From: Beroe forskalii
Lineage: Eukaryota > Ctenophora > Nuda > Beroida > Beroidae
Direction of reading: 5' to 3'
NCBI GenBank assembly: GCA_011033025.1
Contig: WFMF01000242.1
Span: 1-64,000 of the forward strand
DNA length: 64,000 bases
Made by a program: the position numbers and the translations under genes. Shown one piece after another: positions 873 through 39,627 of this stretch. A model generated the notes under the pieces. The model was not told the DNA's origin. It ran no database searches and saw only the letters and a list, made by a program, of their open reading frames with translations. Numbering within the stretch: the stretch's first letter is position 1; each line of letters opens with the position of its first letter.

Positions 873-889
873 TAGACGGTTCGTGTACG

Positions 890-1183
890 TTAGGAAAGAT
901 CATGATTGACAGCTCGTGCGTTCTGCGAGTGCAAATCATAACATTGTTTATTGTTGACGAAGGTTTCAGGTAACGTGTCAAATGTACCAATTTTCATCTT
1001 TCTATGCACCGTGACGACGTCATGATCCGTATTATTGCAAACTAGGACATCCACTCTACCTTTGGCGGAATTATAAAATCCACTAGTGCACGTGACTGAG
1101 CTGTTGCCAAGGGTAGGATGGAAGATTCCTGTGGTGGTGACGTAAGATGATGCCTTTTTATTAGAAGGCCTTTGTGATAACAT
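890..1183 (-). pseudogene. Gypsy pol, protease-RT linker fragment
   Basis: A 97-codon fragment between protease and reverse transcriptase. RVDVLVCNNTDHDVVTVHRK followed by MKIGTFDTL resembles the short beta-rich stretch found between these two domains in Ty3/gypsy pol proteins. It is in a different open segment from both neighbours, so the polyprotein is broken here. Assignment rests mainly on position. Confidence 0.5.
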
Positions 1184-1706: not shown

Positions 1707-2917
1707 CTATTGTTGAGGGCTCGGCCCACTCAGAAAATTCTGTGATTGTTGTTGAGCCCTAGGGCCAAGCTGGGAATGAATGGCTCTGGTGTGCGTTAAA
1801 ACGAGGGCCTGGCCCTGGTTGGAGATTTTGCCTGCCATTGTGACCAGACTGAAAATTTTGGTTAGGCGCGGCCCTACCTGAGAATTTCTCGCACTCTCCT
1901 CATCACGCTTTTTCTTCCTACATTGGGACCGTATATGCCCCCAAATGTTACAATAGTAACATTGTTTGTTGGAATGGGGATTGAATGGACGCCTGTTGGC
2001 ATCCCTGTTAAAATTCTGATTTCTGAAACCAGGATTAGAGTTATTTGGGTACGGAGTCGAACCCATGTAAAAATTTGGGCTGGGACTGATGTGCTCTGAC
2101 GAGAGTAGTGCTCAGGGGCAAAATTTTGCACTGCGAAATTCTGGGGAAGGAATCACGAGGCACAAAATCACGAGGCATAAAATTCTGGGGCTGAATTTCG
2201 CTGATGATGTGCATTAGCATTACTTTGAGTCGCTAAAGAATCAGAGAGGCATGCCAATCAGTGGCATTGCCACGTGATAGCTGGGTGTTAGTAACCTCGG
2301 ACGGTACTGACGCATCTGAGGCTAGGATTTGGAGGTCAGCGTCCGTGGACGTTGTACCAGGCCGCAAAATTCCGAATTTGTGTGGCACCTTCGAGTTTTT
2401 GGGCATGCTCTACCGCTAATGCCAAGTTGTCGAAATTCATGGCAAGGAGTTTAATGCTCGTGTCATTGTCACGAACGCCAGTGCAGAATGAATCAACTAG
2501 AGTTTGCTCTTTGGAGCCTGCAGGAAGGTTAGCTTTACTGGCCAATTTACGTAGGGCTATCGAAAAATCATGCAAACTTTCAGAAGTTTCTGGGCCCTGT
2601 ATTTAAGAGCTAACCGTGGTGGTATTTTTCGATTGGTTGCAAGGCCTTTTCAATGAGGGGGCGAAATGTAGGGTCAGCTTTCACTTCGGGGGTAAGGGCG
2701 AGCTCTTGTACCACGGAGAAAGACACGCTATCTAGGTAAGTGCACAACGCAGGAAACTGATCCTTTTCACAGCCATGGATTCGGCAAAATTAAAGAACTG
2801 GGCCGCCCAGGTTAAGAAATCATCGCCTTGCTTATATTGTGACGGCTGCCGTACAATAAGTTTTTGGTTTTGGGGTAGTAAGAGCTTGGTTATCTTCCCG
2901 GACATTGTGTGAAACAA
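1707..2917 (-). pseudogene. Gypsy gag with CCHC nucleocapsid, frame-broken
   Basis: Several overlapping open segments carry a gag-like protein. The 2336-2575 segment has a helical gag character (SKEQTLVDSFCTGVRDNDTS), and the 2732-2917 segment contains FLTWAAQFFNFAESMA, like the start of a gypsy gag core. Near 1930-1975, CYYCNIWGHIRSQC is a C-x2-C-x4-H-x4-C zinc knuckle that binds element RNA, followed by a basic stretch. Frame changes separate the parts, so no intact Gag can be made. Confidence 0.7.
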
Positions 2918-3352
2918 ACAAGTCGGACAAAATCAATCAATTTATGAGTTAAGTGTTATAGCCTTAAACAGAGGTAAACGTATATTTACACGGTAAATAT
3001 AAGAATCAGATTGAAAGATAAAGGCTAAAAAGAAATCAATTGGGCTTGGAAAATGGGCCCGTGTATATGAAATGGTTTTGAACAAAGAGAGACTCAGTAC
3101 TTACAGGATGGAAATCAGCTCAAGCACTTTGAGAATCATTGTTGACAGTTGCAGATAAAAACGTATAAAATAAAAACTAAAATGGGTCCCCGCGCGGTCC
3201 TAGATATAGTGGCTGCGCGGTAACAGTGCTCACGTGTCGCGCGGCATGAGGCTAATTGTTTTAGATCTGATCAGACGCCCGGCGTAATTATCGTAAAAGT
3301 ATTTGGCAAGTAAAACCGGAAACTTTGTGCTAGGAGGAGGAGGAAGATCGAA
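2918..3352 (-). other. Gypsy leader or LTR region
   Basis: This non-coding stretch lies upstream of the gag-like frame in element orientation, where the primer-binding site and 5' LTR would be. I see no convincing LTR ends or tRNA-complementary primer site, so this is a positional assignment only. Confidence 0.3.
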
Positions 3353-3870
3353 TCAGTGCAGCTTGGATGCGGCTTTTGAGACCCGAGCCTGTCTCTGATT
3401 GACCAAGTTTAGGGGCGGAGGAATGCTCCTGGGAAAAGATAAATAGAGAGAGAATTTGCTACCAATGTAGCTAAATATAGAAGGATGGCCTGATGTCTTG
3501 ATGTGAACCTTAGGTGAAGTAAGGAGGAGGATTCTAAGAATTTGGATATGGGTGGGAGAGAGTGCCTGAGCTCTCAGCTCCTGACAGAGCTTGACAACTA
3601 TGATGTTTGCTGATATCGTGCTATCTTTCGGCTCGTTAGTGCTGACCTCTGTGCAGTGATGAACAAGATCTTTGTGAATGAGGGTTGTAACTCCACCGCC
3701 TTTGCCAGCTTTGCGGAGATTGCTGTAAGATTTAAAGCCATTGATAGCAACCTCGGACACAGTCTCTTGCAGACACACAATATTGTGAGTAGAGATGGTC
3801 TTCACAAACTCTGGATCTTCAGACTTATTTCAAGGATTCCAGTGGCATTGGCAATGTTCCAGGAGATGAT
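3353..3870 (-). pseudogene. LINE endonuclease (EEP family), broken
   Basis: The EEP nuclease start is visible near 3840-3870 as SWNIANATG, and after a frame change as NIVCLQETVSE, whose Glu is the metal-binding residue of APE-type nucleases, then GGVTTLIHKDL. In LINEs this domain nicks target DNA to prime reverse transcription. The rest of the fold (N-x-Y, the GDFN-type loop and the catalytic SDH) is absent, and later residues align with nothing I recognise. At least one frameshift lies between the first two motifs. Confidence 0.65.
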
Positions 3871-3975
3871 GGAACGAACATAATCCATCGGAACAGAGAA
3901 AAGAAGATAACGAAGGGATGAACCTGATGATGGAGAAGAGGTGCAATGGACTGCAATGAGGGAGAGACGGAGGAT

Positions 3976-4400
3976 CTAGGTAGTAAGAGGAAATGTACGA
4001 TGAAGACTAGTTCTGAAATTACCCATGATGACTTTGGTTCCTCTCTGGTTAAGGTGAGTGGTACCCTCCCTGAACATGTAGTGGTAGGGGGGTCCGGAGC
4101 CATTTGCAAAAAAGTTAGCATTACGGTTTTGCTCAACTCTGCTCCAAAAGTCGGAGGAATTAGTAGCTCTTTGGAGATACTCGATCTTTTCTGAAAGTGA
4201 TTCTCTGAACTGTGAAGCCTTTTCTTGCTCTTTGCCACAGGAGAGTATGTGGGAGACAATGACGCTGCAAGACTGGGCAGATTCACGCAGAATTTTATCA
4301 ATGGATTCTATGAATGTTTCCACAGCCTCAACTACTGGAACTTTCTCGATGATATCGTTGGCTCCCAGATGTATGTAGATTGCGTCGGGTGAATGCTATT
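3976..4400 (-). pseudogene. SGNH-hydrolase C-terminal half, out of frame with the long ORF
   Basis: Just after the end of the 1,706-codon ORF another frame carries IYIHLGANDI, the GxND block III of SGNH/GDSL hydrolases, and GTTHLNQRG, the block V His. The first block (LLTDST, where GDS is usual) is in the long ORF near 4515. One lost base near 4380-4390 would explain the break. SGNH domains in LINE ORF1 proteins are lipid/ester-hydrolase-like and support retrotransposition in some CR1/L2 clades. The first Gly of GDS is Thr here. Confidence 0.7.
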
Positions 4401-7400
4401 AGCTGTTCTTTCAGCGTCTTGTCCCAAGGCTGAAATCGAACGTTTCCTTACAATGCTGACGTCATAACGTTTGGAGAACTCCTCTGCTTTGAATGTCTGC
4501 ATAGTCGAGTCAGTCAACAGTACCACTTTTTTCTTGTTGGCTGACCTGTGTTTTGATTTATTTGTCCTTGTGCTGCTTTCCCGAGGCTTGGCTTTGTCGA
4601 AGCGCCTGTAAGTTTCCCTTTCAGCAACTTGGGCAGGGGACAGACCAGGAGTTATTGGGTTTGTTCGTGTTTCGCTCGGTGACTTGGGACAGGGGCTTTC
4701 ATCTCTGGATGACATGAGGGCATCACGATAAGACTGGGTCTGACCATTGATGTAAGTAGTGGTAGACGTCGAAATGATGCGGTGGATCTCCTCAATTCGT
4801 TCACTGTCGTTACTCCTGAAAACACTATCCCGCCAGTTGTCTAGATCTCTCTTGAGTGTAGCAGTGTCACGGAGTGTCTCCTTTAGACTCAGGATGCTCC
4901 TCTCCGTGCTCTCGAGCAGCAAGTTAGAGTCAGCATTCAGCTTTTCTAACTTTGAGATTGTGGTTTTATCCACTGTTGGCGCAGGGAGAGAAGGAGGAGC
5001 ACTTTTACTGTCTGATGACTGGAGTGTGATGGTTCTGACTTCTGTTAACAGTTCATCAAGCTTTGTTGAAGTGTTTCTTGAGGAGTTCTCTACGGATTCC
5101 AGTTTGTTGCAAATGGCGTTATTTACTTTTTCAAGAACCTCAAGACGTGTGTTGATTGAGGAGCAAGAATGATCAGAGCTGGAACCAAGGATCTGTTGGC
5201 TGATCCTCTTCTTCTTAGCCTTCAGTGATCCGTCTGATTTCAAATTCAGGTACTGGAGGTCATTTGATATCTCCCTTTCAGTGGCATTCTCAAGGGAGTC
5301 GAAGTAAGAAGAAATACCTCTGAATGCTGGGACACTGGAAATAGTTGCTCTTTTCCGTTTGCCAGACTCTCTAGTGGGTCTGATGATGTTTCTTTTGAGA
5401 AAGTCGTCAGTGGTGGGCAGGGAGCATGGAAGATTGAAATCAAAATTGGGAGATTTCAAGAGTTTAGTCTCAGGGATTGAACCTTCTTTGTCAGGAGAAA
5501 AGCTGAAGGTGTCAGCATCTGAGGCAAGGATAGTTGACAGTCTTGCTTTGATTTCGGAGGCTGATCCCTTTGTTGAGGACTGGAAAGATCTCAGCTCGTT
5601 ACGAACCTCATCAACAAGAAGCTTTTTGACAATGACGCTGACTGCACTGGGCGGAACATTTGTTCGACTGTCAGATATGAGAGAAGCAATACGGGTTCTT
5701 TTGTCTTGCACGCTGTCACTTTTGGAGAATTGTTGACCGAGAGCAGCAAGAACTAAGTCCAGGGATTTCTGACAGAGTTTAGTGTCAATCACATTCTTGT
5801 AATAGGGGACTTGAGAGAATCGAGCACTGATTTTATTGATGGGTTTGCAGGGAACTGCTTCATCTGCGATTTCATCGATCCAGTGAGGTGTTTCGTCGGA
5901 TGTCATAGCACGGAAGAAGGTGAGGGAGAAGGAGGCCGTCTTTGATTCAGAGTCCTGGCTAAGCTCGGACCGAAGTTGGAATGTCCTTAGAGCCCTGCTG
6001 GAGAAGAAAGCTACTGATCCATGTGTGGTGAAGATACGACCAATGTTGATACGCCCACCAATGGAGCTGGAGTTAGATTTCGGGATGAGGTCAATGGGGC
6101 TCTGGTGACCAAGAAACAAGATTGCAAGTGGGCTGTCAGGTTGCATGCTGTCTTGTACCTCCTGAGGGATGACAGGCAATTCCGGATGCTGAACTCCGGG
6201 TTTGCAGCGCTCTATGAGGCACGAGTTGAGTTGTGAATTTTCGTGCCACAGCTGATCATTCAGGATTTGGTTCATGCATTGAAGCATGATTGGGATTTCA
6301 CTGAAGTCATTAGTGTTGTATACATCCCATTTCTTGGGAGCAGAAAGTTCCTTCGAGCCAAAGAGTGAAAGTTCCCGATGTTGGGGCCCGTGTTTCGTGA
6401 ATGGTACACTGGCTTCAGTTGAATCGAGGAGTACATCGGCAGCCTCAATTGGAACAAATAGCTTATTCACGAAGATATCCCGCTGATCGTCATTTCCAAC
6501 AGATGTGTAGCCAGATGAGGGTACCTTCCTGTAGATGATGCATGGGTCGGAGATTCCGGGAATAAGAGGGGTGGTGTTGAGTCGGCTCACAGTTGCAGGT
6601 TCATCACAACCCAATAGACTAAGTTCTGTAGGTGTAGTGCAGAATGCGGGGCTCCTGCTAGGCGTTGAAAGATCATCAGTGGAATCTGGTGCCGAACTTG
6701 ATGGAATGCTGAGATGCTCAGGAGGTTGATTAACCCTTAAATCATCTGCTGAGGGGGATGCTGCTTCAACGGAATGCTGCTGAGAAGGATGCTTCTGGGG
6801 ATGCTGCTCCGACGGAATCTGCTGAGGGGGATGCTGCTGAGGGGGATGCTGCTCCGACGGGATCTGCTGAGAGGGAAGCTGCTCCGACGGGTTTTGCTGA
6901 GGGGGACGCTGCTCCGATAAGATCTGCTGAGAGGGATGCTGCTGGGAGGGATGCTGCTGAGAGGGATGCTGCTGGGAGGGATGCTGCTGAGAGGGATGCT
7001 GCTGGGAGGGATGCTGCTGAGAGGGATGCTGCTGAGGGGGATGCTGCTGAGGAGGATGCTGGTCCGACTGGATCCGCTGAGGGGGATGCTGCTCCGAAGG
7101 GATACGCTGAGGGGGATGCTGGTCCGATGAGATCTGCTGAGAGGGATGCTGGTCCGACGGGATCTGCTGAGAGGGATGCTGCTGGGAGGGATGCTGCTTC
7201 GACGGGATCTGCTGAGGGAGATGCTGGTCCGACGGGATCTGCTGAGGGGAATGCTGCTCCGACGGGATCTGCTGGGAGGGAAGCTGCTCCGACGGGTTTT
7301 GCTGAGGGGGATGCTGCTCGGACGGGATCTGCTGAGGGGGACGCTGCTCCGACGGGATCTGCTGAGAGGGACGCTGCTCCGATGAGATCTGCTGAGGGGG

Positions 7401-9452
7401 ATGCTGCTGAGGGGGATGCTGCTCCGACGGGATCTGCTGAGGGGGATGCTGGTCCGAAGGGATCCGCTGAGGGGGATGCTGGTCCGACTGGATCTGCTGA
7501 GAGGGCTGCTGCTCAGGGGGATGCTGCTGAGGGGGATGCCGCTGAGGGGGATGCTGCTCCGACGGGATCTGCTGAGGGGGATGCTGCTCGGACGGGATCT
7601 GCTGGGAGGGATGCTGGTCCGACGGGATCTGCTGAGAGGGATGCTGCTCAGGGGGATGCTGCTCCGACGGGATCTGCTGAGGGGGATGCTGGTCCGAAGG
7701 GATCCGCTGAGGGGGATGCTGGTCCGACTGGATCCGCTGAGGGGGATGCTGCTCCGACTGGATCTGCTGGGAGGGATGCTGCTCCGACGGGATCTGCTGG
7801 GAGGGATGCTCGGACGGGATCTGTTGAGAGGGATGCTGCTCCGACAGAGATGCTACTCCGACAGAATCTGAAGAGAAGGATGTGTCGGTCTCTGATTCAT
7901 CATCTTCTTCGTCTTTGGATGACACTTCTTCATATGATTGTGTGTTGTGTGTGCTTCTGCGCCACCTTTCGTTATGGTCGTCATCATCTTCATCGTCACC
8001 TCCGGCACCACAGGAGTCAGATGTATTGGAGGAGGTGTAACTGTTTCCAGAAGCCGTTGACTGGCTGCCGCTGCTAGGCTCCTTACCTCCGGTGGAGGGC
8101 TGCTGGCCAGCATTATTACCTTCGTTCGTTCCACGGCTGAGACTGGTGGCAGGGAAGAGTGGTGGGGAGGTGGAGTGCAAACAACTACTGAATTCAGAAA
8201 CGGCAATTGAAGCAAACGACAACGCAGATCCGCACCTTGCTCCTGTGCGCGTTCCTCTGCACGAGGGTAGGGATCCAAAATTGATGATAGGGCGCAAATT
8301 GACAAATCGAAAATTTTTGTTGTTGGGGCAGATGTTTGAAAAAATAGAAAAATTTTGCCGTTTGTCAGAAGCACGCTGATTGTGGCTGAAAGAGTATGAA
8401 AGTAGGTGAGAAATGGCGCAAATGAGGTGCTGGAGGTCAATGTAAAGTGCAGTGGATTGTGAAAAAATCAATCCATATTTCAAATCATTGTGATCAACCC
8501 ATAAAATCAGTAGAAGATCAAACAGAAAAGAAAAGTCTTGAGATTGCAATATGGGTATCAAAGACTTCAGCACAAATCTGCTTAAGCACAGAACATTCCC
8601 TGTCATAAAAACGATAAGTCTGGTGATTAAAACACGGCACGCAAACAACAAACATCCAATGATGTATTTGGTGACCGCTAGAAACGTCAGCAGGCCTATA
8701 ATGGTGGGTAGGTTGAGTAGTAGGTTCAGAAAGCACAAGTACAGGATATCATCTAATTTCGTTGTAAGATCGGAATATCCGAGCAACAAGTCGCCGGGTG
8801 AAACGCATTGTCCAGTGTACAAGTGCATGTGATCGTTTGTCACGGCTGCGCTAACTCCACTCTCATTGTCATTATGGTACTCGCAGTACATGGCAGGGGA
8901 ATCCTTATCTCTTGATAGGTGGGTACAGATAATTATACCGCGGTTCATGAGATAATATAATGTTTGTTCAGGTAGGAAGATTTTATGATACTGGTTGTTC
9001 TCATTTCGTTTACCATGAATGCCCAATTCGTTATACGCTTCGTGATTAGTTTTGTTGTTGTTGATAGTACTAGAATTGGAAATATTTAGCTTTGAGAAAG
9101 TGTATCGCTCACGGTACAGACTCGAGAGAACACTCCAGTATCGTCTTGACAGCTTTCGTTCTGAGTAATGACTCGGTACGTGGTCGTTCCGTGGGAGCAG
9201 GAAGTCGTTCGAGCGGCTTTGTGTACTTTCGTTTACGTTGTAGTGTGGAACATGATCGTTTCGAGGTAGCAAGTGGTTGTACAGTGTATTTGTACTTGCT
9301 ACGTCATAGCCAAGAAGGCTGACTATGACAAGGAATGCACTTAGCACGTTGATATCGTTATCGCAATTTGCAGAGAGATAAAATCGATACAAAATGAAAA
9401 TGTAACTTTTTCGTGACATACGACGTGTTGAAATAAAGAATTGCAGCGCCAC
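4332..9452 (-). CDS. 1,706-codon ORF: membrane N-terminus, Q/P/H repeat, coiled coil, SGNH start
   Basis: Domains in order: a hydrophobic segment at residues ~30-55 (VLSAFLVIVSLLGYDV) like a signal peptide or anchor; a polar, Asn-rich ectodomain-like part to ~225; a hydrophobic cluster at ~230-335 with several likely membrane spans; a Gly/Ser/Asp-rich linker; a repeat of PSQQIPSEQH-type units at ~530-900; Ser/Thr-rich spacer; helical, coiled-coil-prone sequence at ~1385-1585 (TKLDELLTEVRTIT); a basic stretch; then KKVVLLTDSTMQTF, the start of an SGNH-like domain cut by a frameshift. The last parts fit a LINE ORF1. The membrane half is unusual, and I cannot tell whether one protein is made or whether two reading frames have fused. 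It could also be a host gene joined to a LINE. Function unknown. Confidence 0.5.
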   Translation of the reverse strand: MALQFFISTRRMSRKSYIFILYRFYLSANCDNDINVLSAFLVIVSLLGYDVASTNTLYNHLLPRNDHVPHYNVNESTQSRSNDFLLPRNDHVPSHYSERKLSRRYWSVLSSLYRERYTFSKLNISNSSTINNNKTNHEAYNELGIHGKRNENNQYHKIFLPEQTLYYLMNRGIIICTHLSRDKDSPAMYCEYHNDNESGVSAAVTNDHMHLYTGQCVSPGDLLLGYSDLTTKLDDILYLCFLNLLLNLPTIIGLLTFLAVTKYIIGCLLFACRVLITRLIVFMTGNVLCLSRFVLKSLIPILQSQDFSFLFDLLLILWVDHNDLKYGLIFSQSTALYIDLQHLICAISHLLSYSFSHNQRASDKRQNFSIFSNICPNNKNFRFVNLRPIINFGSLPSCRGTRTGARCGSALSFASIAVSEFSSCLHSTSPPLFPATSLSRGTNEGNNAGQQPSTGGKEPSSGSQSTASGNSYTSSNTSDSCGAGGDDEDDDDHNERWRRSTHNTQSYEEVSSKDEEDDESETDTSFSSDSVGVASLSEQHPSQQIPSEHPSQQIPSEQHPSQQIQSEQHPPQRIQSDQHPPQRIPSDQHPPQQIPSEQHPPEQHPSQQIPSDQHPSQQIPSEQHPPQQIPSEQHPPQRHPPQQHPPEQQPSQQIQSDQHPPQRIPSDQHPPQQIPSEQHPPQQHPPQQISSEQRPSQQIPSEQRPPQQIPSEQHPPQQNPSEQLPSQQIPSEQHSPQQIPSDQHLPQQIPSKQHPSQQHPSQQIPSDQHPSQQISSDQHPPQRIPSEQHPPQRIQSDQHPPQQHPPQQHPSQQHPSQQHPSQQHPSQQHPSQQHPSQQHPSQQILSEQRPPQQNPSEQLPSQQIPSEQHPPQQHPPQQIPSEQHPQKHPSQQHSVEAASPSADDLRVNQPPEHLSIPSSSAPDSTDDLSTPSRSPAFCTTPTELSLLGCDEPATVSRLNTTPLIPGISDPCIIYRKVPSSGYTSVGNDDQRDIFVNKLFVPIEAADVLLDSTEASVPFTKHGPQHRELSLFGSKELSAPKKWDVYNTNDFSEIPIMLQCMNQILNDQLWHENSQLNSCLIERCKPGVQHPELPVIPQEVQDSMQPDSPLAILFLGHQSPIDLIPKSNSSSIGGRINIGRIFTTHGSVAFFSSRALRTFQLRSELSQDSESKTASFSLTFFRAMTSDETPHWIDEIADEAVPCKPINKISARFSQVPYYKNVIDTKLCQKSLDLVLAALGQQFSKSDSVQDKRTRIASLISDSRTNVPPSAVSVIVKKLLVDEVRNELRSFQSSTKGSASEIKARLSTILASDADTFSFSPDKEGSIPETKLLKSPNFDFNLPCSLPTTDDFLKRNIIRPTRESGKRKRATISSVPAFRGISSYFDSLENATEREISNDLQYLNLKSDGSLKAKKKRISQQILGSSSDHSCSSINTRLEVLEKVNNAICNKLESVENSSRNTSTKLDELLTEVRTITLQSSDSKSAPPSLPAPTVDKTTISKLEKLNADSNLLLESTERSILSLKETLRDTATLKRDLDNWRDSVFRSNDSERIEEIHRIISTSTTTYINGQTQSYRDALMSSRDESPCPKSPSETRTNPITPGLSPAQVAERETYRRFDKAKPRESSTRTNKSKHRSANKKKVVLLTDSTMQTFKAEEFSKRYDVSIVRKRSISALGQDAERTANSIHPTQSTYIWEPTISSRKFQ
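6750..7862 (-). repeat. ~30-bp coding minisatellite (Q/P/H-rich)
   Basis: About 1.1 kb of tandem units with the core GGGGGATGCTGCTCCGACGG (plus strand) and frequent shorter 12-15 bp sub-units. Unit lengths stay multiples of three, so the minus-strand frame stays open and encodes variants of PSQQIPSEQH. The plus strand is also open for long stretches, which is a by-product of the repeat. Confidence 0.95.
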
Positions 9453-9753
9453 CGCAGGTAAAATGCAATTTGTACATCATCTCTTGAACTGCACAAGTAT
9501 ACGTTATGCGGTGTATACACGCCTCTTGTTGTAATACATCGAAAAATGTACATTATTGAATATAGTAAGTAATTGCAATGTGTTGTATGTCTAACGTACA
9601 TCCAACATTAAGTAAATAAGTCAGGCAAGTGTTCATTATGACGTGTAAATTATCACCTTACCATACTTTGTATGATGCAGTGTTGTACAATGTATATTAT
9701 GCGCTGGAGTTAACCAGGAATAGCCAATGATTTTCAAATAAAATCACTGACTC

Positions 9754-11483: not shown

Positions 11484-11629
11484 TTAAACACAAGGAAATA
11501 CCGTATTCTTTCATTAGAGAGGATCACGTGCACACCACGTGTGTGTGGTAAAGACCCTGATGTGAGATGACTAGTGTCTCGTGTCTCTCTTTGTGTGTAT
11601 TTTTACGAGGTGTTTCTCTTGAAACACCT
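11484..11629 (+). ncRNA. snRNA-like repeat, copy 2
   Basis: Box TTAAACACAAGGAAATACC, then CACGTG-CACAC-CACGTG at 11525-11541 (here a perfect 6-bp stem), Sm-like TATTTTTAC at 11599-11607, and terminal hairpin 11608-11629 with a perfect 9-bp stem (AGGTGTTTC with GAAACACCT) and a 4-nt loop. Confidence 0.4.
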
Positions 11630-12126
11630 ACTATAACATGAGAGTATTGAAACATCTACGGGTAGTTACCCGTCGATACCCTGAGTTTACCCGAGAAAAG
11701 GTGGTTTCAACGATCAATCAGAGCTGGAATAGTACCCTGCAAATCTGAGTGGCATGTTAGATCTGCCAAACCTTTTATGCTTTCATGCATTGACTTGCAT
11801 ACGATGCAGGTTTTATTGATAATTTGGGACTTTGGTGGTAAAGACCCTGATGTGAGATGACTAGTGTCTCGTGTCTCTCTTTGTGTGTATTTTTACGAGG
11901 TGTTTCTCTTGAAACACCTACTATAACATGAGAGTATTGAAACATCTACGGGTAGTTACCCGTCGATACCCTGAGTTTACCCGAGAAAAGGTGGTTTCAA
12001 CGATCAATCAGAGCTGGAATAGTACCCTGCAAATCTGAGTGGCATGTTAGATCTGCCAAACCTTTTATGCTTTCATGCATTGACTTGCATACGATGCAGG
12101 TTTTATTGATAATTTGGGACTTTGGT
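11547..12126. repeat. 290-bp tandem duplication
   Basis: The segment from 11547 is repeated from 11837 with a 290-bp period and I see no differences by eye. Each unit carries the Sm-like site and terminal hairpin of the snRNA-like repeat, so the second unit supplies a half copy (hairpin 11898-11919). Either a recent duplication or an assembly duplication. Confidence 0.9.
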
Positions 12127-12470
12127 GGATCATAAATACGTCGAAATCAATTAATTATGCGAATAACTAATTAACTGATTGTCCTCTAAGTCGGGTGAAG
12201 ATGTCCCAGCAAAAACCTATAGAAAATACCAAGTACATACTACATATCATAAAAAGTCCGGACATAAAAACGGGCACAGACGCACGAACACTTTGAAATT
12301 ATCAATAAAGATAACGTACAACGTACGTTAAATCATTATGGACAAGTTTAAATTATACATAATGAAATGAGTGTTATATACCTAGTAATGTTGTATTTTG
12401 TTCAATGTAGGTATATGCGTTGAAGCTAACCGAAAATATTCAATAATTATGAAATAAAATGATTGAATTT

Positions 12471-21800: not shown

Positions 21801-24800
21801 AGGTAAGGGATCTTGTTGGTACCAAAGTTGCAAATGGAAAAGTGCAGGGTGCTTGGGTGGCAACTTGCAACGTGCTAGAGTAAATAGTTTCACAAAGCTG
21901 CTCAGTGCTGCACAGTTTTCGATGCCGCGCATAAATCTTTAATTACTGGTATGCGTTTGATGCCACGCATAAACCTACATAATTATATACTGGTGCGCGG
22001 CTTGAAAACACTGCCTGCACGCGCTTTGACATCTTAAATCGGCTTGCCCGTAGGGGCATAGGACATCGATCAATCAGCGTGCGAGTTAACAGTCAATTTG
22101 TGCGCTGAATGGCCAACTTTATTAAATTGAATGGCAGGTAAGCTTATATACGCCGTCAATATCATAGGCCAAGGAATCAGCACTCCGTAGTGTCAGTATA
22201 CACGGTCAGTGTATAGTGGAGAATGAATATCACAGCGCAGTGGATATCACAGTGAAGTATCGTAATTCATTATGCAGCAGTGAATTCATTATGCCTGAAT
22301 ATCACGGTACATCGTAGTGAGCACATTATACTGTATAAACAGAACTGTTGCACGGGGGTATAGAGCAACGCAGCTTTGTGTTTTCATGTTCACCCTCATT
22401 TCACGCACCCGGAAAAGTTACAGCAGGGTTAATTGGCAGAAAGTTCAGCCGATATCAAACGCGATGGAATCATTAGCTGCCCTAAAGATCGTAGCCAGGA
22501 TCTGTATTTTATGTTATGCGACGATTCAAATCCGCACGGTTACCATCGTATTTTACGAGCAAGAAGCATTTTCATATACAACAGCTCAACAAATCGTGCT
22601 GGAAACATCTTAAATCAAAGGATGGAATAATCACTACTTTACTAAATGCCACATTGCTCAACATATTTCAAGGAGTAACTATAACACATTTCAACACACT
22701 TAATATAGATCGGAGTTTATTTATAAACAGGGAAGGAGGGAAGAGTCTACATTCTAGAGCTCGCTCACATGGAACAATGGGACGCATAACAACATCACAC
22801 CACTGTAGTGGTAGTCGTCTGCAAAAGGTAGGCGGTCGAGAGTAACGTCACTATGAAGGATTTAAATGGCGTATCGATGACGTATAAACGTCTACTATTT
22901 AAGCGTGCGACGTGCGATGCCGTCTTCTGGTAATATTTTATGCAAAGCATTATCATCAGATAATCTTAGCATTTGGAATGTTTCTCCTTGTAAGAAGGGC
23001 GGAATCATTGACCATTGTTCTTCCCTATATACATTATAGCTTGGTTAGTCGGCAAGATAATCAGTGCACTACTGGTAGCGACGCCGTTAATTCGCGGCTA
23101 GTAATTATATTTCGCATAAATGGCATCACTTAAATAGGTTAATGCAAGGATTGGTATATGCATTACTCAGCATTCCTACCCATTAAAAGCAGAATAAATT
23201 ACATAACACATTAAAGGTGCAGTCCGGGATATTGGTCAAAAAATTCAAATTCCTGAATTATAGCTCAAGTCATTAGTCTAGTATCCACCATCACTCCTGC
23301 AAACGGAAATAGCGCAGAAATAATTGTATCATCCCCTAATTGGCCACTAAAGTTAGCGCGTGTGATCCTTGAGCAGCGTCCTCCCGCAACACATAGCTCG
23401 AATTACAGTGCGTGTGTAATGTACTGCGTAACCTGGTTTGTTTATCTTGTATAATTTACGGCAATTGATTGTTTTCTGTTTATTGAATGTTCCATAGGTA
23501 TTTGTCGGTTGTCACGATTAATTACATACATTGTACTTTCGTTAATTACGTGTAATGTTGTTGTTAATGTACATAATATTATGCCTAACGAATCTTCCCA
23601 ATCTTATTTCGAAGTTTGTTGATATGCTTGTATGTATTAATTCCATGTAAATGACGGAATTCAAGCATTTTTTGACTAACAGCGAAGTTTCAGTGTACCA
23701 TTGGCTATTGACACATTTACCAACACATCTTATGCAACACAGGAGTTGACCTTAAACTTTTAAATTGTAACCTTCTAAAGTAGTAGGTACTAAGTGCCAA
23801 TCGTTCGCGATTTTAGTGTTTAGTAGTTCTGAGTTCTGTAGTCTAACTGCTTCAGCTTAGTCTCAAAGAAAGATCACAGTAGTAATTACGAATATTAATT
23901 TTTATGGTACTTAGCCTCATTTATATTTTAGGTATGAACTGTTTAATAAACTAATACAGAAACCAAATTAATGACTTTAAATCTATAGAAATGGATGAAG
24001 AAACTTGTTTGGGAGAGCAGATCGGTGTATGTGAGTTTCCAGATCACCCCTATAGTTCACCAAGTGAGAGTAGTGAGCACGATGAAGAAATTGAAGATAT
24101 GAATTTTTCCCTTTTCACGATGGAAAAGAGAGTAGAATCTAGAACTGAAATTGCCAATCAATCAGAACTAACTGTGTCGCATGACCAGAGTGATTCGATA
24201 GAATTAGACCAGGACCAGACCGATGATGGGCAGTCTTCGGATTTGACGTGGTGTAAATGTGGCCATTGCTCATTGTGTCCTCGACTAGAATCTATTTGCT
24301 GTCATGATAAGCCGGAAATATTGGATGTAATGAGTCCTGGCAAAGAATGTATAACCAATGAAACTTTTTTCCAAGTACAGTTAATGTGTGAAGAGGGTTT
24401 ACAATATAATAGATTTATTTATGCATCCCTTTTGAAAGATGATGCTGCGAGGCAAAAATATTTGAATAGAGACTTCGATAACAGCCTGAAGAGGCACCTA
24501 TGCTACCGAAACTTTTTGGTAATTGTGAACAGAGGGCAACCAATGGGCCGGTATAATAGAATAGTATTGCCACGATGTGTTGTATCGAGAATCCGAGAAA
24601 AATATCCTGATCCTTTGGGCCACTACACTGGATTTCAATTACATGTGGATGATGCTTGTTGATGAGTTGACATTGTACAATACATATCTTACACTGTTTG
24701 TGAAAGTAAATTATACACTTAATCATGTAAATTTGTCGTAATATACCGATATTCAAGGTTTATTCGCATAATTGTATCTAATTGTTTCGTAATCACACTG

Positions 24801-27028: not shown

Positions 27029-27822
27029 CTGAAATGCACCACTCTAACACAGAAATACAAAATTATCGAACTGTTCCAAAGTAATATCACTTTATCAAAG
27101 TTTTTGAATGAAGGTAGGAGATTCCTGACGTACTTAATGATTCCTGACGTAGTGGTATTACTGAAATAGTCTGCGGTACAGAGGATGTATGCCTATTTAG
27201 AGCAAACCATGATTATTTGATGTTTACTGTGCATGATAAGGTGCGACATGAAGTGTTTTCTATGTAAAAATATTTTAGCTCGAAGAAATCCTTAGTCCTT
27301 ATCGGTTTAACGTTTGCTACTTGAAATTTCCTGCTGTTTATTTTCCCACCAACTTTTTAGGAGGCCATCATTAAGGTCACCTGTAGGACAGTAAGTACAA
27401 TGAGCGTTTGAAAAGTGTGCCATCTGAGGACAGAATCTGAAGAACCTCATGTATCACAATATATTATGTCATATAATGTTTGGAATAACATTTATAGCTT
27501 TAATATTCCCTAGATATCGAAATAACCTTGCTGTTTTCATATGGACCAAATTCAATTAACTTAGTCTGGGGCTCTTTTAGGCTCAGAGGATAGAAAAAAT
27601 TTGAAAAGAGCCTAAAGTGGGGCACAAAAGAGCCTAAAATTGGCCCCCTAAAATTTAAAACTTTGAAATAAATGAAACCTTTGTTCACATTTACAAGATA
27701 TTTACTATCTAAACACTTCTAAACGATAATAAAACTGAATAACTTTAATCCAAAGAATCCAGTTTATTGAATATTGAATGCTATATCCCATTATATCCTG
27801 CAATTATAATAAAGATACCTTA
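27029..27822. other. Gap between PITPNM exon and fusion gene; possible inversion junction
   Basis: The PITPNM exon ending upstream at 27028 needs a preceding exon of about 16-20 codons that I cannot find here. A good acceptor (TTACTGTCCTACAG on minus, near 27,390) is followed by a short open frame and may hold the last codons of the fusion gene. A 5' breakpoint of the proposed inversion would fall in this interval. Confidence 0.4.
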
Positions 27823-30800
27823 ATTTCTTTGCAAAACAAACAATTCTCAGTGAACAAATGATGGCACAACGTGCCTTGCTTCACATCTGAATATTTTGCT
27901 GTAATTTTCGAGTTCAAATGGATGACCCATGAATTACTTTTCAAATCTTCAATCCGTGTTGTAACGGTTTTCTTATCAGTTTCGCTGAAACACCAGTTAC
28001 TCACGTTCTTTGGGTGTATCGGGAAGAATGCTGTTGTTTGAAGGACAGTCACGGTTTTCTTTTGAGATTCATTCAAGTTTTCGTAAGCCTCTTTGAGAAG
28101 TACAGGCCCAAGTTCACCCCATTTCTCTCCGGTGTAAGATTCATGCAGCTTACCTATGACCAATTCTAGGAACTTGCTTCCTTTCTCAAACTTTAAGAAA
28201 CGCACTGCCAATCCGTTTAGTTCTTTCTTCGTAACCGATAACGTTATCAGTAAGGTTCGTCAGATCACGTAAAACTAAGACATCTGTATCCAGGTACACC
28301 CCACCGTATTTAAACAGCAGCAGAAACCGGAGCATGTCGGTTTGATGAGAATACCAGTACTGGTTCTCTTCCAGAGTCTCAGGAATCCGGCCCACCAGAC
28401 CACGGGCCGAGGATTCGAGGAGCAGCTCTGTGATGTTGAAAGGCCTAACTTCGACCCGGTATCCAGCCTCGTGATACATCGCAAACTGCTCCCTCTCTAG
28501 GGTGTTACTATGGATGAGGACTGTTGCTGTGGGATGATGAAGTAGCACGGACTCTACCGCAGCTGTATGTCTCCAGTTCCAGGCCCCAGACACCTCACCT
28601 CCTCTTTTGAACAGCGTGATTCTGGTGTCTGCTGTTGATACGAAGATCAGGTGAAATAAGAGGTTCCCTGCAGGTGATCGGTGAGACAAATCGATGGACG
28701 GAAGCGGAATCAAGCCCAACATACGAGAAGTTCGTCTCAAGGTCTCGTGTTCTCGGATGATACTCCACAATGATGCCCGGATTTGTAGGAATTTCCCGGG
28801 ATTAGGATTCGCTGGCGGGTCTTCCCAGTTGAATCCCGCAAACCACTGCTCAGCGTGTGTCTCATTCTGCCAGTGCAAGGTGTGGAAAAGATCGATAATC
28901 TGGCCAATTGAACCAGATTGATCATCATAAACTGTATCTTGAGAGGCACCGGTTTCTTTAGAGGTGATGAAAATAACAGGCGTCCCCGTTAAAGCACACA
29001 GAAGTGCTACTTGAAACTGATTAGTGATGACTATTTTAGCTGAAGAAAGTTCCTCAAAAACTCCGAAAACCGACTCAAACCCCTGCAAACTTGCAACATC
29101 ATTCGTGTTGGAGTGTTTAATGTACTTGATCTGTCCTTGGAGTTGAGCGGGGATCCTTTTTAGGAAAATTAATTCTGGTACCTCTACTAAAATTATCTTA
29201 GTTGTTCGGTCCTTCTGAGTGAGTAAGCATTTGAAGTATCGTGGTCAGACATCCTGAAGAAAACGATGGCGTAAATAAATCACTTTGAGAATCGAACTCG
29301 TATGCTGACATAGCTTGATCATGTCCGACGAATCTGTCACAGAAGGGAAGGTATTTGAGACCGTAAAAGCCGTGTGTTTTGTCTTCAATTCTTGTAAATA
29401 CAGATCTCCAATCATTCCTGGTCATTGTTTTCTGTTGAATATATGGCGAAAAAGGTGCTAACGTCTCAGATTCTCCACAATAAGAACCATCCACTACCGC
29501 CTCACAGCTATACTCTTCAGACAGCAAATCCTCGTAGGTAACCTGGCAACTGATTTGAGATGTCAGTTTTCCTGATCTGGCACTTTCCCGAGCACTTTCA
29601 AACACCCCAATTAGCCTTTCCAGAGCTCGATAGTGCTGGGACGGAATCACCTCCACTGCCTCTGGGCATTTAGTGCTATGAAGCTCAAGGTAAAAGTTTG
29701 CTTTTCGTTCCAGTTGAAGCTGTAAGCGAACAGCAAGATGCAGAAAGACCCAATAATTATCACCTGCCAGACCCTGATATAGCGCGGGTTGTGTTGCCCA
29801 GTGTTGGAGTCGGGTACCATTGAAAAGGGTTTTGAGGTTCAAGACTACAGGTTCAAGATGACAAAAGTCTCCCTCTGAAGTAATCTGCTCCAGGATATGG
29901 GTTTGGATTTCCTCTGGCGCTGCTATGATCATGATCATGTCCTGGTACTTAGAGCAAGTCCTTCTGATAGATTCTAGGGTATGATTGGGAGGATTGAATG
30001 GGTAGGTCCAGGATGCAAGGATGGTTCGGTTGTTTTGATCAGTGGGGTGCAATATGCAGTCTTTCTCCGTCGCTTTCATTTGAATTATTCCTGCCCCCAA
30101 ATCGAAACCAAATCTATTCATTTCATTCCCTTCAAATGAAAGAGGTTGTAAGACAGCAGTTGGAACTAACAGCAAAATGGCTGCTAGCGATACGAACTTC
30201 ATCGGACGACCAAGAGCATGATACATGGTGTATCTCAACATGATGGAAGCTGTAATCCCTAAGACCAACAGACAAATGTTTAGAATTGTAGTTGCTGTGA
30301 GCTCTTGGTTGGTCAAGGTATTGAATAGCACTTTTTGAGAAATATTTAAAATGGCATGAGCTATTGGGTTCACAAGACTTAAAACTGATAGTGATACAAT
30401 GTTGTAAAACGTGTGGAACACCAAACAGACAGCCAAATCTATGAAAATTTTGAGATTTATCAACGATGAGCCCCAGAATACTGTTTTTATGATGAAAATT
30501 GGGAACATGACTTTGCAAGATCCAGCCGCAACCATGAAGTATTGTCGGATAGGATGAACATCTCTGAATTGTACTTTTTTCAGAAAAACATTTATAGCTG
30601 GAAACGTGAGGCTTGAAGCTAATCCAGCTAAAAATCCATTGGTACCCCTTTCTCCTGACCCAGTCAGTAAACCCTTTGCTCCAACCGCAAAGGAGATCAA
30701 ACTGGCCAAGAGAGGAAGGGAGAAATGAAGCAGTGCTTTTCAGGAAATATGTCACATAAAAATACGTAATAATAAGCTCGCACACTTGGATTTCTTGCGC

Positions 30801-31078
30801 CAAACACGGATTATTAGATGCGAGGAAACCGACTGTATTGAGAAGTATGATCCACCAAGGTAAACTGGGCTTCTCTGCAGATGTCGTGACCGGTTGCTTT
30901 TGAACAAACCTAATCCAAATAGCTGTGAAAAGTAGTCCACAGGCTTGTTGAGCCAGTGTGAGGTCAATCTGAAGGAGATCGAGGAATGAGTCCGATCTGT
31001 CATGAATAATCGTTATTTTGTCCGTGAACAAATCAGAGAGAGCTTTGGAGGACCACCAAAGAGAGACTAGTACGGCAA
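27823..31078 (-). CDS. TPT/SLC35-like transporter + pyruvyltransferase-like + DXD glycosyltransferase fusion, three frameshifts
   Basis: Read from an acceptor at 31,079-31,080. Segment 31078-30740: first membrane spans of a TPT-type carrier (LWWSKALSDLFTDK, LPWWIILLNTVGFLASNN). Segment 30740-29220: the remaining spans (GERGTNGFLAGLASS, a TPT-like block), then a lumenal region ending FSSGCLTTIL. Segment 29220-28225: VITNQFQVALLCALTGTPVI, the C-terminal block of polysaccharide pyruvyltransferase-like proteins, then a GT32/A4GALT-type domain with SHQTDMLRFLLL and KYGGVYLDTD (DXD). Segment 28225-27823: NGLAVRFLKFEKGS, GELGPVLLKEAY, SWVIHLNSK and a C-terminal Cys pair, completing that domain. TPT carriers move sugar phosphates, PEP or nucleotide sugars; DXD enzymes transfer sugars in the Golgi. 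The family motif SRLHxAL reads NQFQVAL, losing the catalytic Arg and His. Three shifts, each one extra base, lie near 30,738, 29,200-29,240 and 28,225. No 5' exon or start codon was found. A donor at the end suggests one short last exon. Confidence 0.7.
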
Positions 31079-32741
31079 CTGATGGGAGAGTAGTGTTTTC
31101 AGCAAAAACAATCAGGGATAATTCGGGGGTATGAAAATTACGAGCTATGAAAATTACGGGCCAGTTAATTTTTACATACTTGAGTACGTATCACGTTACC
31201 TACTCTACTGCATCAGTGTATGTTCTGGCAGTCTGACTAATCACTTAATCAATACGTCCGTGAATTAAAATTTAGATACAATTACAATAAAAGAATAACT
31301 GGCTTACCAATCGCTGCTTTAGATGTTGAAATCGCTGCTTTATTCATTCTAAAAGTTTAATAAAGTAAGATACGTGTACTCAGTAGTGACTGTATTTACA
31401 ATAATACAATAATGAACTAATGAATGACATTGAATTCTAAGAGTCTAAGGTATAAATCATTGCCCTGGTCCGCTGTTTATGAACGGGGTGAGTCACTTAG
31501 AGTAGTAAGTGGAATGCTACTTTGCACAATACACAGGTATTCGACCATTAATTTTAGTATACTATATAAACTATTTAATAAAAGCATAAAATCACCGCCA
31601 CGGAAGTACGAAGCACGACCTCGAAAGTCCGTACAAGCACGACCTCAAAAAAGCAGTACAATTGATATTGCAATCGATACATCAGACATAGGTATATAAG
31701 ACTTACGATTAGGTCAACTAACCACTTGAAACTTGCGATTATATCAGACATAGATATATAAGACTTGAAACTTACGATTGAAACTTACGATTGAAACTTA
31801 CGATTATACTGTCAAATTACCCATCGAATTTTAAGTTAAAAATAAAAAGGCTGTAGACACTCGACAAGTATACAAGTATACAATAATAAAAGGTCTGATC
31901 AAGAAGAGTCACGATCTCACGGAAGTAAAATTATTCCTGTACTAGTGTACTGAATTCAATAAGTGAATACAATAATATTATTTCAGTGAATTATTTTGCC
32001 ATGGAACAAGAGGGTAAGTGAAACATAACCCAGATCATGTACCATTGTCGTGTATCCCTTTATTACAAGACAGAGCGATTACCATAATAGTAATTTGTAA
32101 CAAAAAGATATAGATGGATCGGACTACAGCACTTCTGTACTGTAGTTCGTAGATTAAATTAGTAAAAACACAAAAACTTCTTTAATCTAATAAATAATAG
32201 GTACCTACTTTTTGCTTTTTGTTGAATAATTGCATGAAATAAATTTCTAAATTTGCTGAAATTACTAATTTGATTTCACTTGTTTAATTGCTTATATTAT
32301 TGTACTTTTGATATACTTGATACAAAAGACGCTATCGCGTTGTGGTATGTGTCGACTGTTGACCCCGATCAATGGAAATTACTGAGAGAGCGAAAATGGC
32401 TACAAAGTACACAAGCTAAACCCACAGTAAGAGGAACAACGGCGTTAACCCACACTATGCTTTCTTGAGTCCGATCAGTCCATATGTCAAGGTTACAAAT
32501 GGCAATATAAAATGAACGACTATACGCGCATTCAAAGACAACGTAACTATGCAAGGTCAATTCATATGTAAAACATATATGTAAAACATATGAACGTAAA
32601 AGTGTTAGTCTGTTGCGTACAATTAATGTGTGAAATAGCTAAATAGACAACAAAAATAGGCTAAATTGCCTACGTATTACTTAATAACCTCTGTGTTATT
32701 ACGAGTAATTATTAATGAACTCAGCTACATTTCTCTTCCAG
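31079..32741. other. Intergenic interval with small repeats
   Basis: Lies between divergent genes. It has short direct repeats (GAAACTTACGATT units at 31,725-31,812; GCACGACCTC units at 31,610-31,650). ATGGAACAAGAGG at 31,999 is followed by a good donor (GTAAGTG) and could be a small first exon of the epoxide hydrolase, but the ~220 residues expected before the first recognised exon were not found. Confidence 0.4.
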
Positions 32742-36267: not shown

Positions 36268-39200
36268 ATGACAACACGACGACAGACAAACAACGTCCGT
36301 ACTAAGCTGTGTTTCAAGTGCAAGACAGGGGATCCCTTTGTGGTTATCCGGAACGGAGACCCTTTCTGTGGGCCGTGTTTTGACGCGTATCTCATCCACA
36401 AGTTCAGACAGGTCAGTAGGGGAGCGACCGTCAATTTTTGGGCATTGCCTCATGATCATAATAATTAATATTTAACTTTTTGTCATCCATCATTATCGAT
36501 AATTCTTTAAGTAATATCAACAACTTAAAATCAATCAAATAATTCAGTCGTCTGCCAAAATCTGGCAGTGGATTTAGTTACTAATCCGTTTGATTTTGTA
36601 GGTACATCATCAGTTTTTATTTATTTCATCCCATCACCCACCATGTACACTGTACGTTGTGTACATTTAGTGTACATCATTGACTCAATAACTGTACACT
36701 GTGTATACAATTTGTGTACGTAAGTTTAATCTTTGCCATGCACTGGAGTCCAGGCAATGAGTAACACACTCTGTAACCCCTCGTGATTTGAATATTATGA
36801 TGTTTCACTCACTATTTATTCCATTTCATTTTGTCGCTCTTGGGCCAAAGGCGGGGGAATATTACGTCATTATCATGGAATAAGTGAGCGATTGATGAAG
36901 TAAAACTACACTATATGTTGCTTGCACTAAATTATGTGAGACGTGAGTCACATAATAATATTTTGATTTCTGTCCATTATTCATTTATTCAGTTGCGTCA
37001 ATTACACCACGTGTACACAACAAGCTAACATTTGATAGGAATGTCAGGGATAATTCAGAGTCCACTCAGAGTAGGAAGCATGGCTTTTATTATCTTACTT
37101 TTCACGAAAGTTAAAGAACCAGTCCATGAATAATAAAAGTCACGTATAATAGAGTAATATAGGTCATATAACTAACGAAATTTTCTAATTCTACCTGCAG
37201 TAGTGCAATTTGATTACACTTTATTCTACATTATTATTATACTACGCTTTTTCAAAAAATTTAACTTTAATATATGCCAAGAAACAACACACTCACACCA
37301 CTGTTTTTATAGTAGAACTCTGTATTTAACGCAGGTATCGTCTGAAGGTTATGTCTGACACTTGTCGCTCTCGAATAGCAGGCGGATAGAAATCAGCAAT
37401 TCTCCATTCTAAGCTATGGTAATAACGTCAGTTTCAGGCGTCTATTGCTTAACTGCAACCTTCTCAACCTACCTCCCCGGTGGTGATAATAATTATGCCA
37501 TATAAGGTAGTGCATGAAATCTCCTGCTCTCATCATTACCCATGATAATGACGTAACGTTCACCAGCCTAGTGGTAGTGTCTGAAACAAAACCTGGAACA
37601 TTAAATGCCATATTCTATAAGGTAGTATCATAGTTGAAAAAAAAATTGACTGGGGAACTGACGGTATCCGAAATTCAGATTATCTTAACTGAAATTTAAC
37701 AAAAAACAACTAAAATCTCGAGTTGTCAGGAAAGCCGAAGTAACTTTAATTCTGCTCAAGTACTGTCATCTGGACTGGAACGTCGCTCTAAACAACCGGA
37801 CGTTATTTTCAGGGTCTGAAGGTATAAAACTCTGTACCTTGGTGATACATATTCCCTACTTTTTTCAGGGTCTGGGTGACGGTAACCCAACTTCTTTTTC
37901 ACCAGCCTAGTGGTAGTTTTCAGGGTCTTGGTAAGCACAAAGTCCTGTACCTGGTGATACATATTCCCTAACTCCCCTTCTTTTCAGGGTCTAGGTAAGC
38001 ACAAAGTCCTGTACCCTGGTGAGACATATTCCCTAACTCCCCCCTCTTTTCAGGGTCTGGGTAAGCACAAAGTCCTGTACTCTGGTGAGACATATTCCCT
38101 AACTCCCCCTCTTTTCAGGGTCTAGGTAAGCACAAAGTCCTGTACCCAGGCAAGACATATTCCCTAACTCCCCCCTCTTTTCAGGGTCTGGGTAAGCACA
38201 AAGTCCTGTACCCGGGTGATACATTGCACTCCTTGATAGTATTGTTTTCGTGGCACAACTGTGCAATTAATTAAAAGATGTATCTATAATTAATAAGTTT
38301 CAGGGGTCTGGGTAAACGCTAAGTCCTGTACCTGGTGAGACATATTCCCTAACTCCCCCTCTTTTCAGGGTCTGGGTAAGCACAAAGTCCTGTATCCTGG
38401 TGAGACATATTCCCTAACTCCCCCCTCATTTCATGGTCTAGGCAAAGTCCTGTCCCGGGGAGACTCCCTAACTCCCCAACCGGTAGCAAAGTCCTGTACT
38501 AACTTTCCCTAACTCCCCCTCTTTTCAGGGTCTGGGTAAGCACAAAGTCCTGTCCCCTTGGAGACATATTCCCTAACTCCCCTTCTTTTCAGGGTCTGGG
38601 TAAGCACAAAGTCCTGTACCCGGGTGAGACAGTCCTGCTCCACATTCCTGGTACAGCCCCCTCCCTTGCCATGCTCCACCTCATGGCTACCGGCTACGAT
38701 CAGGCCTCCCACAAGAAGATCACTGCGCTCCCTAAAATCATCATTATCGACGACAGCACTCTCTTTGACATCGGCGAGAGTCCTGTTCCAGAATTATTGA
38801 GGGTTATAGACAGGCTTCCTGATATGCCTAAGCAGACGTTTATTGTGCCCTTTCCGATGGTGTTCATGGATGGTTTTGAGGATGTTTGCCGGGAGTTTTG
38901 TTCAGAAAATAGTGAAAGAAGTATCGTCGATTTGAATGAAGCGTGTGACAATCACTCGGAATTGGTAGAAAAAGCTCGTGCTACCTTTGCTGGAATGTCA
39001 ACAGCTTCCGCAAGAGAAGACGTACATAGATCACTCCACCTTAAGATCCTGCACAGCTTGGCTCGAGTACTCAACTCAACCAAGATCATGCTGTCCGAAA
39101 CGTCTCTTGACCTGGCCAGTCGACTCCTAACTTCAGTCTCAATAGGGCGTGGACCACACATTCCTAACGAAACTAACTACCTCGATACCAGAATACCAGG

Positions 39201-39627
39201 GCTGCTGTTTCTACATGCCATGCGAGAGTTTACTCCTAAGGAATGTACGTTTTACCTCCAGAGATTGCAGATAAATCCCATCACTATTGTCAATCATTCG
39301 ACCCTGTTAGACCCCATAGTGGGTAGTGTCAATGTCCTATCAGAGACATTCATCAGCGGGCTTCAGCGCGAGTTTTCCTCTACAGTCAGTACCGTAATGA
39401 AGACTGCCGCCAAGTTAGAAGCTATTGAGGGCAGTCCCAGTCAATGTCAGCTATGTTACCTGCCGATTAACAGAGATTTAACTCAATCGCTCGGTGATTT
39501 GAACTTGGTTTCTGGAAGTTATTGTTTAGGGTGTACCATAGCAATGAGTGAGTGTGGGGCAAAAGCGCTGGAAAATGTTCAAAGGATCTCGAATCGTGAT
39601 GTTCTGGATGAATATTTAATTGAGTAG
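36268..39627 (+). CDS. CTU2: Cytosolic thiouridylase subunit 2
   Basis: CTU2 (NCS2 in yeast) pairs with CTU1 to put sulfur, taken from Urm1, on wobble U34 of tRNA-Lys, -Glu and -Gln in the cytosol. Two exons, 36268-36411 and 38593-39627, join in phase 0 into 392 residues (human protein 515). Exon 1 has LCFKCKTGDPFVVIRNGDPF followed by CGPCF, the two N-terminal CxxC pairs. Exon 2 starts GLGKHKVLYPGETVLL as in orthologues, then a degenerate P-loop region, SIGRGPHIPNE and MREFTPKECTFY, the conserved TSTVSTVMKT-like block (FSSTVSTVMKTAAKLE), and C-terminal CQLCYLP and CLGC pairs. The start is the first ATG before the CxxC block. Its single intron is packed with copies of the exon-2 acceptor and holds a MITE-like element. 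The protein is short mainly in the central loops, and nothing is broken. Confidence 0.95.
36862..37556. mobile_element. MITE-like element in the CTU2 intron
   Basis: Ends TTACGTCATTATCATGG and its complement CCATGATAATGACGTAA face each other 695 bp apart. The same terminal motif bounds the element at 62,083-62,487 and occurs singly elsewhere in the window. No ORF inside is recognisable. Confidence 0.6.
37800..38592 (+). repeat. Exon-edge minisatellite carrying acceptor, mini-exon and donor (CTU2)
   Basis: About eleven units of ~60-65 bp precede exon 2. A typical unit is TTTTCAGGGTCTGGGTAAGC, then ACAAAGTCCTGTACCYG, then GTGAGACATATTCCC. It copies the real acceptor and the first ~30 coding bases of exon 2, followed by a donor-like GTGAGA that also exists inside the real exon. 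Each unit could in principle be read as a ~31-nt micro-exon. Confidence 0.92.

Follow-up and report, generated by a model that had tools for sequence, protein, structure and literature searches.

The closest described counterpart to the gene family analysed here is found in fission yeast, where, according to passages of two papers (PMC6801904, PMC4872226), the Golgi pyruvyltransferase Pvg1p relies on Pet1p and Pet2p for phosphoenolpyruvate (PEP). Carriers for PEP and a pyruvyltransferase thus cooperate there in modifying glycans that are capped with galactose. Animals do make pyruvylated galactose: portions of PMC6801904, PMC6994554 and PMC7828597 report it from an adhesion glycan of the sponge Microciona and from glycolipids of the sea hare Aplysia, and name no animal pyruvyltransferase gene. 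The subject of this study is a minus-strand gene in a 64,000-nucleotide stretch from the ctenophore Beroe forskalii (the window; positions 1-64000 of contig WFMF01000242.1, here C295, in an assembly of 216 Mb and 1134 contigs), which a sequence-only reading had interpreted as a fusion of a TPT carrier, a pyruvyltransferase-like domain and a glycosyltransferase.

We find that this predicted fusion is real at the level of a gene family, of which the window copy is not the best example. In the fullest member, C176, carrier, pyruvyltransferase and glycosyltransferase are encoded in one chain, whereas the yeast components are separate proteins. The parallel with Pet1p and Pet2p is drawn from their described role, and Pvg1p is only weakly similar to C176 (5ax7, E 1.5). 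Among the papers listed in our literature searches, no title or abstract opening reports a fusion of carrier, pyruvyltransferase and glycosyltransferase; the searches yielded no publication on a ctenophore together with a pyruvyltransferase, and nothing on pyruvate in ctenophore glycans.

The fusion family

Searching the genome at the protein level with two pieces of the window gene led to six further loci (C176, C725, C375, C240, C1024, C381). As the genome search scores the best candidates only, the family has at least seven loci. C176 is, at positions 366365-369928 of its contig, a single uninterrupted frame of 1188 codons, comprising a TPT carrier, a block of about 190 residues, a PS_pyruv_trans domain and a GT32/Gb3_synth glycosyltransferase, with TPT, PS_pyruv_trans, GT32 and Gb3_synth each above the Pfam cut-off; at random composition, about 4e-27 such frames would be expected genome-wide. 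The block between carrier and pyruvyltransferase is conserved in the window (29486-30055) and in all six paralogs.

The other domains are distributed unevenly. TPT occurs in four of the seven loci (C176, C725, C381, C295), C240 retains only its last stretch, and none was found in C375 and C1024, including their flanks. A pyruvyltransferase core with a GCRD-type motif is present in C176 and C725 and missing in four loci (C295, C375, C240, C1024); the C381 match has a stop codon inside and ends at C176 residue 642, ahead of the motif. GT32/Gb3_synth is found in six of the seven, always C-terminally, and no further Gb3_synth match was detected in the genome. C375 (822 residues) and C240 (898 residues) are open frames without an intact TPT, with one and three hydrophobic helices near the start, respectively. 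This pattern suggests that the subgroup of C295, C375, C240 and C1024 is left with a decayed carrier or none and has lost the core of the pyruvyltransferase, so that what remains would be a Golgi glycosyltransferase. Frame changes occur outside the window as well (two in C725, one in C381 beside its in-frame stop, one in C1024), and may therefore be single-base assembly errors, which are indistinguishable here from gene decay.

Searches for relatives elsewhere confirmed none in viral contigs (two queries, the first of them with its two patterns drawn from the glycosyltransferase part) and none in a collection of genome contigs (one query), and found none in a phage collection. Relatives on plasmids are bacterial pyruvyltransferases only, with two records for the C176 domain and nine for a second family described below.

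The carrier

PF03151 (TPT) is matched above the cut-off by C176 (89.2 bits, residues 7-290) and C725 (87.1 bits). With E values up to 1, the C176 carrier matches one structure in PDB, that of the plastid-type translocator (5y78/5y79, E 1.3e-5), and it matches TIGR00817, the phosphate/phosphoenolpyruvate translocator model, with E 3.1e-18. Residues 10-298 align to 5y78, with a Lys and a Lys-Arg pair in register with K115 and K273-R274, which we take to act at the phosphate site. Lys and Lys-Arg are 158 residues apart in the 5y78 chain, a spacing presumably shared by Lys204 and Lys362 of the translocator structure paper. Both the C176 and the C725 carriers have these residues, while C381 retains the Lys and has Lys-Ser instead of Lys-Arg. 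C176 differs from the plastid-type translocators in being an animal gene, in its fusion to enzymes, in an extra helix behind the carrier and in a Gln at the position of a His.

The extra helix (C176 residues 310-330) is hydrophobic and comes after the region that aligns with 5y78, the last residue of which is 298. Carriers of the phosphate-translocator fold have ten helices, and both their termini face the cytosol; if this applies here, the additional helix would place the enzyme domains in the lumen, and the C-terminal domains may thus be lumenal. PEP import appears plausible for the C176 and C725 carriers.

The pyruvyltransferase and glycosyltransferase domains

PF04230 (PS_pyruv_trans, cut-off 25.3 bits) is matched by C176 with 37.8 and by C725 with 34.8 bits. 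Both have a GCRD-type motif (PVGCRD in C176, PVGSRD in C725) and a conserved His (in NRIHVALP). With proteins of Sphingobium and Pseudosulfitobacter, the two records matched among 72,556 plasmids, the C176 domain shares 26-27% identity. These bacterial proteins share the motif (GSRD in C725) and the His with C176 and C725; the His is lost in all four derived copies. Arg337 of Pvg1p was dropped as a test residue, being absent from the three bacterial proteins compared; the tests relied on the His and on the Arg-Asp motif instead. The Sphingobium sp. V4 protein (L054:2715-4394, on a plasmid) also joins a GT32-like domain and a pyruvyltransferase of the C176 subfamily in one chain. Unlike C176, it is without a carrier and has its glycosyltransferase, one of the Caps_synth (capsule) type, ahead of the pyruvyltransferase.

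The C176 glycosyltransferase matches PF04488 (47.2 bits) and PF04572 (58.9 bits), and the DXD motif and both regions are present in it as in the window copy. The ctenophore family shares this combination with the A4GALT/GT32 alpha-hexosyltransferases; in contrast to those enzymes, its copies do not stand alone, being the C-terminal domains of a fusion family.

Selective constraint

We computed ratios of nonsynonymous to synonymous substitution rates (dN/dS) with the Nei-Gojobori method; many comparisons had dS above 1 or were saturated and gave no estimate, so that the ratios are rough. Between C176 and C725, dN/dS was 0.07 for the C-terminal half of TPT, 0.07 for the last 170 codons of the pyruvyltransferase region, and 0.11 for both the N- and the C-terminal part of the glycosyltransferase. 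Purifying selection is thereby shown for the stretches of carrier, pyruvyltransferase and glycosyltransferase tested in this pair. Between the window copy and C375, the values were 0.16 for the block, 0.43 for the pyruvyltransferase remnant, and 0.11 and 0.19 for the glycosyltransferase. The window remnant gave 0.39 against C240 and 0.37 against C1024, compared to 0.17 against C176 and 0.23 against C725; among the derived loci other than the window copy, the remnant gave 0.26 (C375/C240) and 0.32 (C240/C1024). As the block ranges from 0.15 to 0.32 in the pairs with an estimate, the glycosyltransferase stands out clearly against the remnant, the block less clearly. These values are consistent with a family in which the fullest form makes use of every domain, while the derived group has retained the glycosyltransferase.

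Golgi nucleotide-sugar carriers belong to the same superfamily as TPT, and the glycosyltransferase is the part retained in six of the seven loci, as would be expected if the carrier imported a nucleotide sugar for it and the pyruvyltransferase-like block were a structural passenger. We consider this unlikely, as the C176 carrier matches the phosphate/PEP model and the plastid-type structure, its one PDB match at E values up to 1, and keeps the Lys and the Lys-Arg pair, and as the pyruvyltransferase stretch tested in C176 and C725 is constrained as much as the glycosyltransferase.

The window copy

The copy in the window consists of four pieces in three coding frames, behind a putative short exon and one intron. 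Its order is TPT-like carrier, block of about 190 residues, pyruvyltransferase-like remnant, and full GT32 and Gb3_synth regions:

31308-31347, minus strand: putative first exon, MNKAAISTSKAAI, with a phase 1 GT donor at its end (predicted from the sequence)
31079-31307, minus strand: putative single intron (GT...AG); an AG stands at the aligned position in the other three TPT-bearing paralogs as well, thus in four of four copies, read by eye
30741-31078, minus strand: TPT-like carrier, N-terminal half, with the phosphate-site Lys replaced by Gln (tblastn to C176 residues 3-186, E 3.5e-22; motif table)
30326-30640, minus strand: TPT-like carrier, C-terminal half, in another frame, with Lys-Arg replaced by Gln-Lys (PF03151, 28.4-30.1 bits; alignment)
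30131-30208, minus strand: hydrophobic helix behind the carrier (hydropathy; counterpart of C176 residues 310-330)
29486-30055, minus strand: block of about 190 residues without an assigned family, in seven of seven family members (alignment among members; Pfam and PDB matches at chance level)
28700-29485, minus strand: pyruvyltransferase-like remnant spanning a frame change, limits approximate (PF04230 E 0.041 at 28960-29088; alignment to C176 and C725)
28243-28569, minus strand: GT32-type sugar-binding region with DXD (GGVYLDTD) (PF04488 1.6e-12; dN/dS 0.11 with C375)
27828-28190, minus strand: alpha-1,4-glycosyltransferase conserved region, behind the third frame change (PF04572 61.9 bits, 8.3e-17)

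The three frame changes lie near 30740, within 29198-29244 and within 28186-28259, and the stop of the last frame is at 27804-27806, slightly past the limit of 27823 given by the sequence-only reading. The frames of 352 and 513 residues are not chance products, because only about 8e-7 and 2e-11 such frames, respectively, would be expected in 64 kb of random composition at 39.7% G+C.

Profile searches and the alignment of paralogs bore out the proposed order of TPT, pyruvyltransferase-like and glycosyltransferase parts on the minus strand, as well as a complete GT32/A4GALT-type domain with DXD, which exceeds the cut-offs of both PF04488 (1.6e-12, 48.3 bits) and PF04572. That the gene is nearly intronless holds apart from a putative short first exon and the single intron behind it, whereas the single open gene does not, as the coding sequence changes frame three times in the assembly. 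In the searches suggested as a check, TPT came out near its cut-off of 30 bits (1.4e-6, 28.4 bits in hmmscan; 30.1 bits in the whole-genome search), with both phosphate-site positions changed. PF04230 reached only 14.2 bits, below its cut-off of 25.3; the GCRD block is absent and the conserved His is a Gln, yet the stretch is homologous to the domain that exceeds the cut-off in C176 and C725. The fusion itself stands for the family, through the C176 frame and the constraint on C176 and C725, and not for the frame-broken window copy. The first reading had thus seen a real and unusual domain order and overstated the pyruvyltransferase and the carrier of this copy; the fuller paralog without interruptions was beyond its view.

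The window copy is a derived and probably partly dead member of the family, and its frame changes mark it as either a recent pseudogene or a copy bearing assembly errors. That it is simply a pseudogene has nearly even chances in our judgement: the frame changes and the lost carrier and pyruvyltransferase residues are as expected of one, while the retained DXD and the glycosyltransferase dN/dS against C375 speak against it, and the frame changes, which C725, C381 and C1024 also have, may be single-base assembly errors. It is possible, if somewhat doubtful, that the window copy is a living glycosyltransferase like C375, C240 and C1024, with the old carrier reduced to a membrane anchor. The open frames of C375 and C240, their hydrophobic helices and the strong constraint on the glycosyltransferase agree with this; the window copy, however, is not open.

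A second pyruvyltransferase family

Of the six PS_pyruv_trans matches found in the genome, four are outside the fusion family, at C295:160 kb, C295:173 kb, C569 and C358 (L046-L049). These open frames of 697-736 residues combine an N-terminal part with multiple transmembrane segments and a PS_pyruv_trans domain of another subfamily than that of C176. PF04230 is exceeded with 36.7-40.8 bits in the three that were scanned and with 40 bits in the fourth (genome search). Neither hhalign nor BLASTP joined the two subfamilies with significance. L049, the one member queried, matched nine plasmid records at 27-33% identity, eight from Caballeronia and one from Burkholderia, six of them annotated as polysaccharide pyruvyl transferase. 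The transmembrane part has several hydrophobic segments and KxxEP and KR motifs. Since it has no detectable similarity to TPT (see below), we regard a second carrier fusion as a lead and not as a finding.

L046:631-2808 and L047:2319-4472 (C295, at about 160 and 173 kb) are 96% identical in protein, lie 12-13 kb apart in opposite orientation and are a recent duplication on the contig of the window. In L048 (C569; frame 1827-4034, minus strand), the first ~60 residues are unlike those of the other three, and a matching start is found in another frame at C569:86230-86343.

Source genome and neighbouring features

Sequenced ctenophore mitochondria lack tRNAs and ATP6, and that of Beroe forskalii has two unknown frames behind ND5, according to passages of PMC6991124. 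The source genome shows the same signature. On its mitochondrial contig of 13,339 bases, COX1 has in-frame TGA, COX3 is present, and behind a Proton_antipo_M frame of ND5 size come two long frames that match nothing in Pfam. ARAGORN, run with the bacterial code, detected no tRNA over the first 10,000 bases. A nuclear locus, C176:380655, gave the genome's sole ATP6 match, to the C-terminal part of the model. The uninterrupted fusion lies about 11 kb from this locus, which argues against contamination. A sponge origin, considered at first on account of the pyruvylated sponge glycan, was rejected in view of these mitochondrial features and the nuclear location of ATP6.

Elsewhere in the window, we found a frame matching CTU2 (tRNA 2-thiolation; 38503-39627, plus strand, 1.1e-11), a 235-residue frame matching P2RX7_C (23955-24662, plus strand, 6.1e-16) and a reverse transcriptase fragment (108-899, minus strand, 8.9e-9). 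A frame of 1714 codons (4332-9476, minus strand) contains a 15/30/135-base tandem array (repeats 6746-7844), across which several further frames are open on both strands. A perfect two-copy tandem repeat of 290 bases lies at 11545-12128.

Proposed mechanism and implications

The reading we favour, as moderately probable, takes the window copy as a derived and probably partly dead member of a family in which C176 and C725 join carrier, block, pyruvyltransferase and glycosyltransferase for Golgi pyruvylation fed by PEP/phosphate exchange. The carrier would bring cytosolic PEP across the Golgi membrane in exchange for lumenal phosphate, and the helix behind it would hold the enzyme domains in the lumen. 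There, the glycosyltransferase would add a hexose, perhaps galactose, which the pyruvyltransferase would cap with a pyruvate ketal, freeing the phosphate that the carrier exports. A single chain of exchanger, pyruvyltransferase and hexosyltransferase would thus serve its own donor and its own acceptor. The import of PEP, raised by the sequence-only reading for the window gene, is plausible for C176 and C725 in view of TIGR00817 and 5y78, and is not supported for the window copy with its lost residues and three frame changes.

Several observations weigh against this reading. The TIGR00817 score of C176 (66 bits) is far under the curated cut-off of 318, and the His of the translocator (THVVK in 5y78) is Gln in C176, so that the substrate cannot be read from the sequence. 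A hydropathy scan of the C176 carrier gives four separate segments, not ten; the topology therefore rests on the alignment to 5y78 and the helix counts of the fold. The match of C176 to the solved Pvg1p (5ax7) covers only 43 residues, including the conserved His. The block of about 190 residues has only chance-level matches in Pfam and PDB up to E 10. In the comparison of C176 and C725, most dS values exceed 1, and C725 has its two frame changes. In the three members of the second family that were scanned, the transmembrane part did not match TPT at E values up to 10, nor did hhalign and shuffled alignments support a relationship.

More broadly, and with odds we place just short of even, ctenophores may have evolved a self-supplied pyruvylation, with import, sugar transfer, capping and phosphate removal in one chain, and with a second pyruvyltransferase subfamily fused to a carrier of its own. 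If so, a single chain that unites the carrier for a donor with two enzymes working on one and the same glycan would be a new organisation of glycosylation. C176 and the second family are candidate animal pyruvyltransferases, and a sialic-acid-like acidic cap would be predicted on ctenophore glycans.
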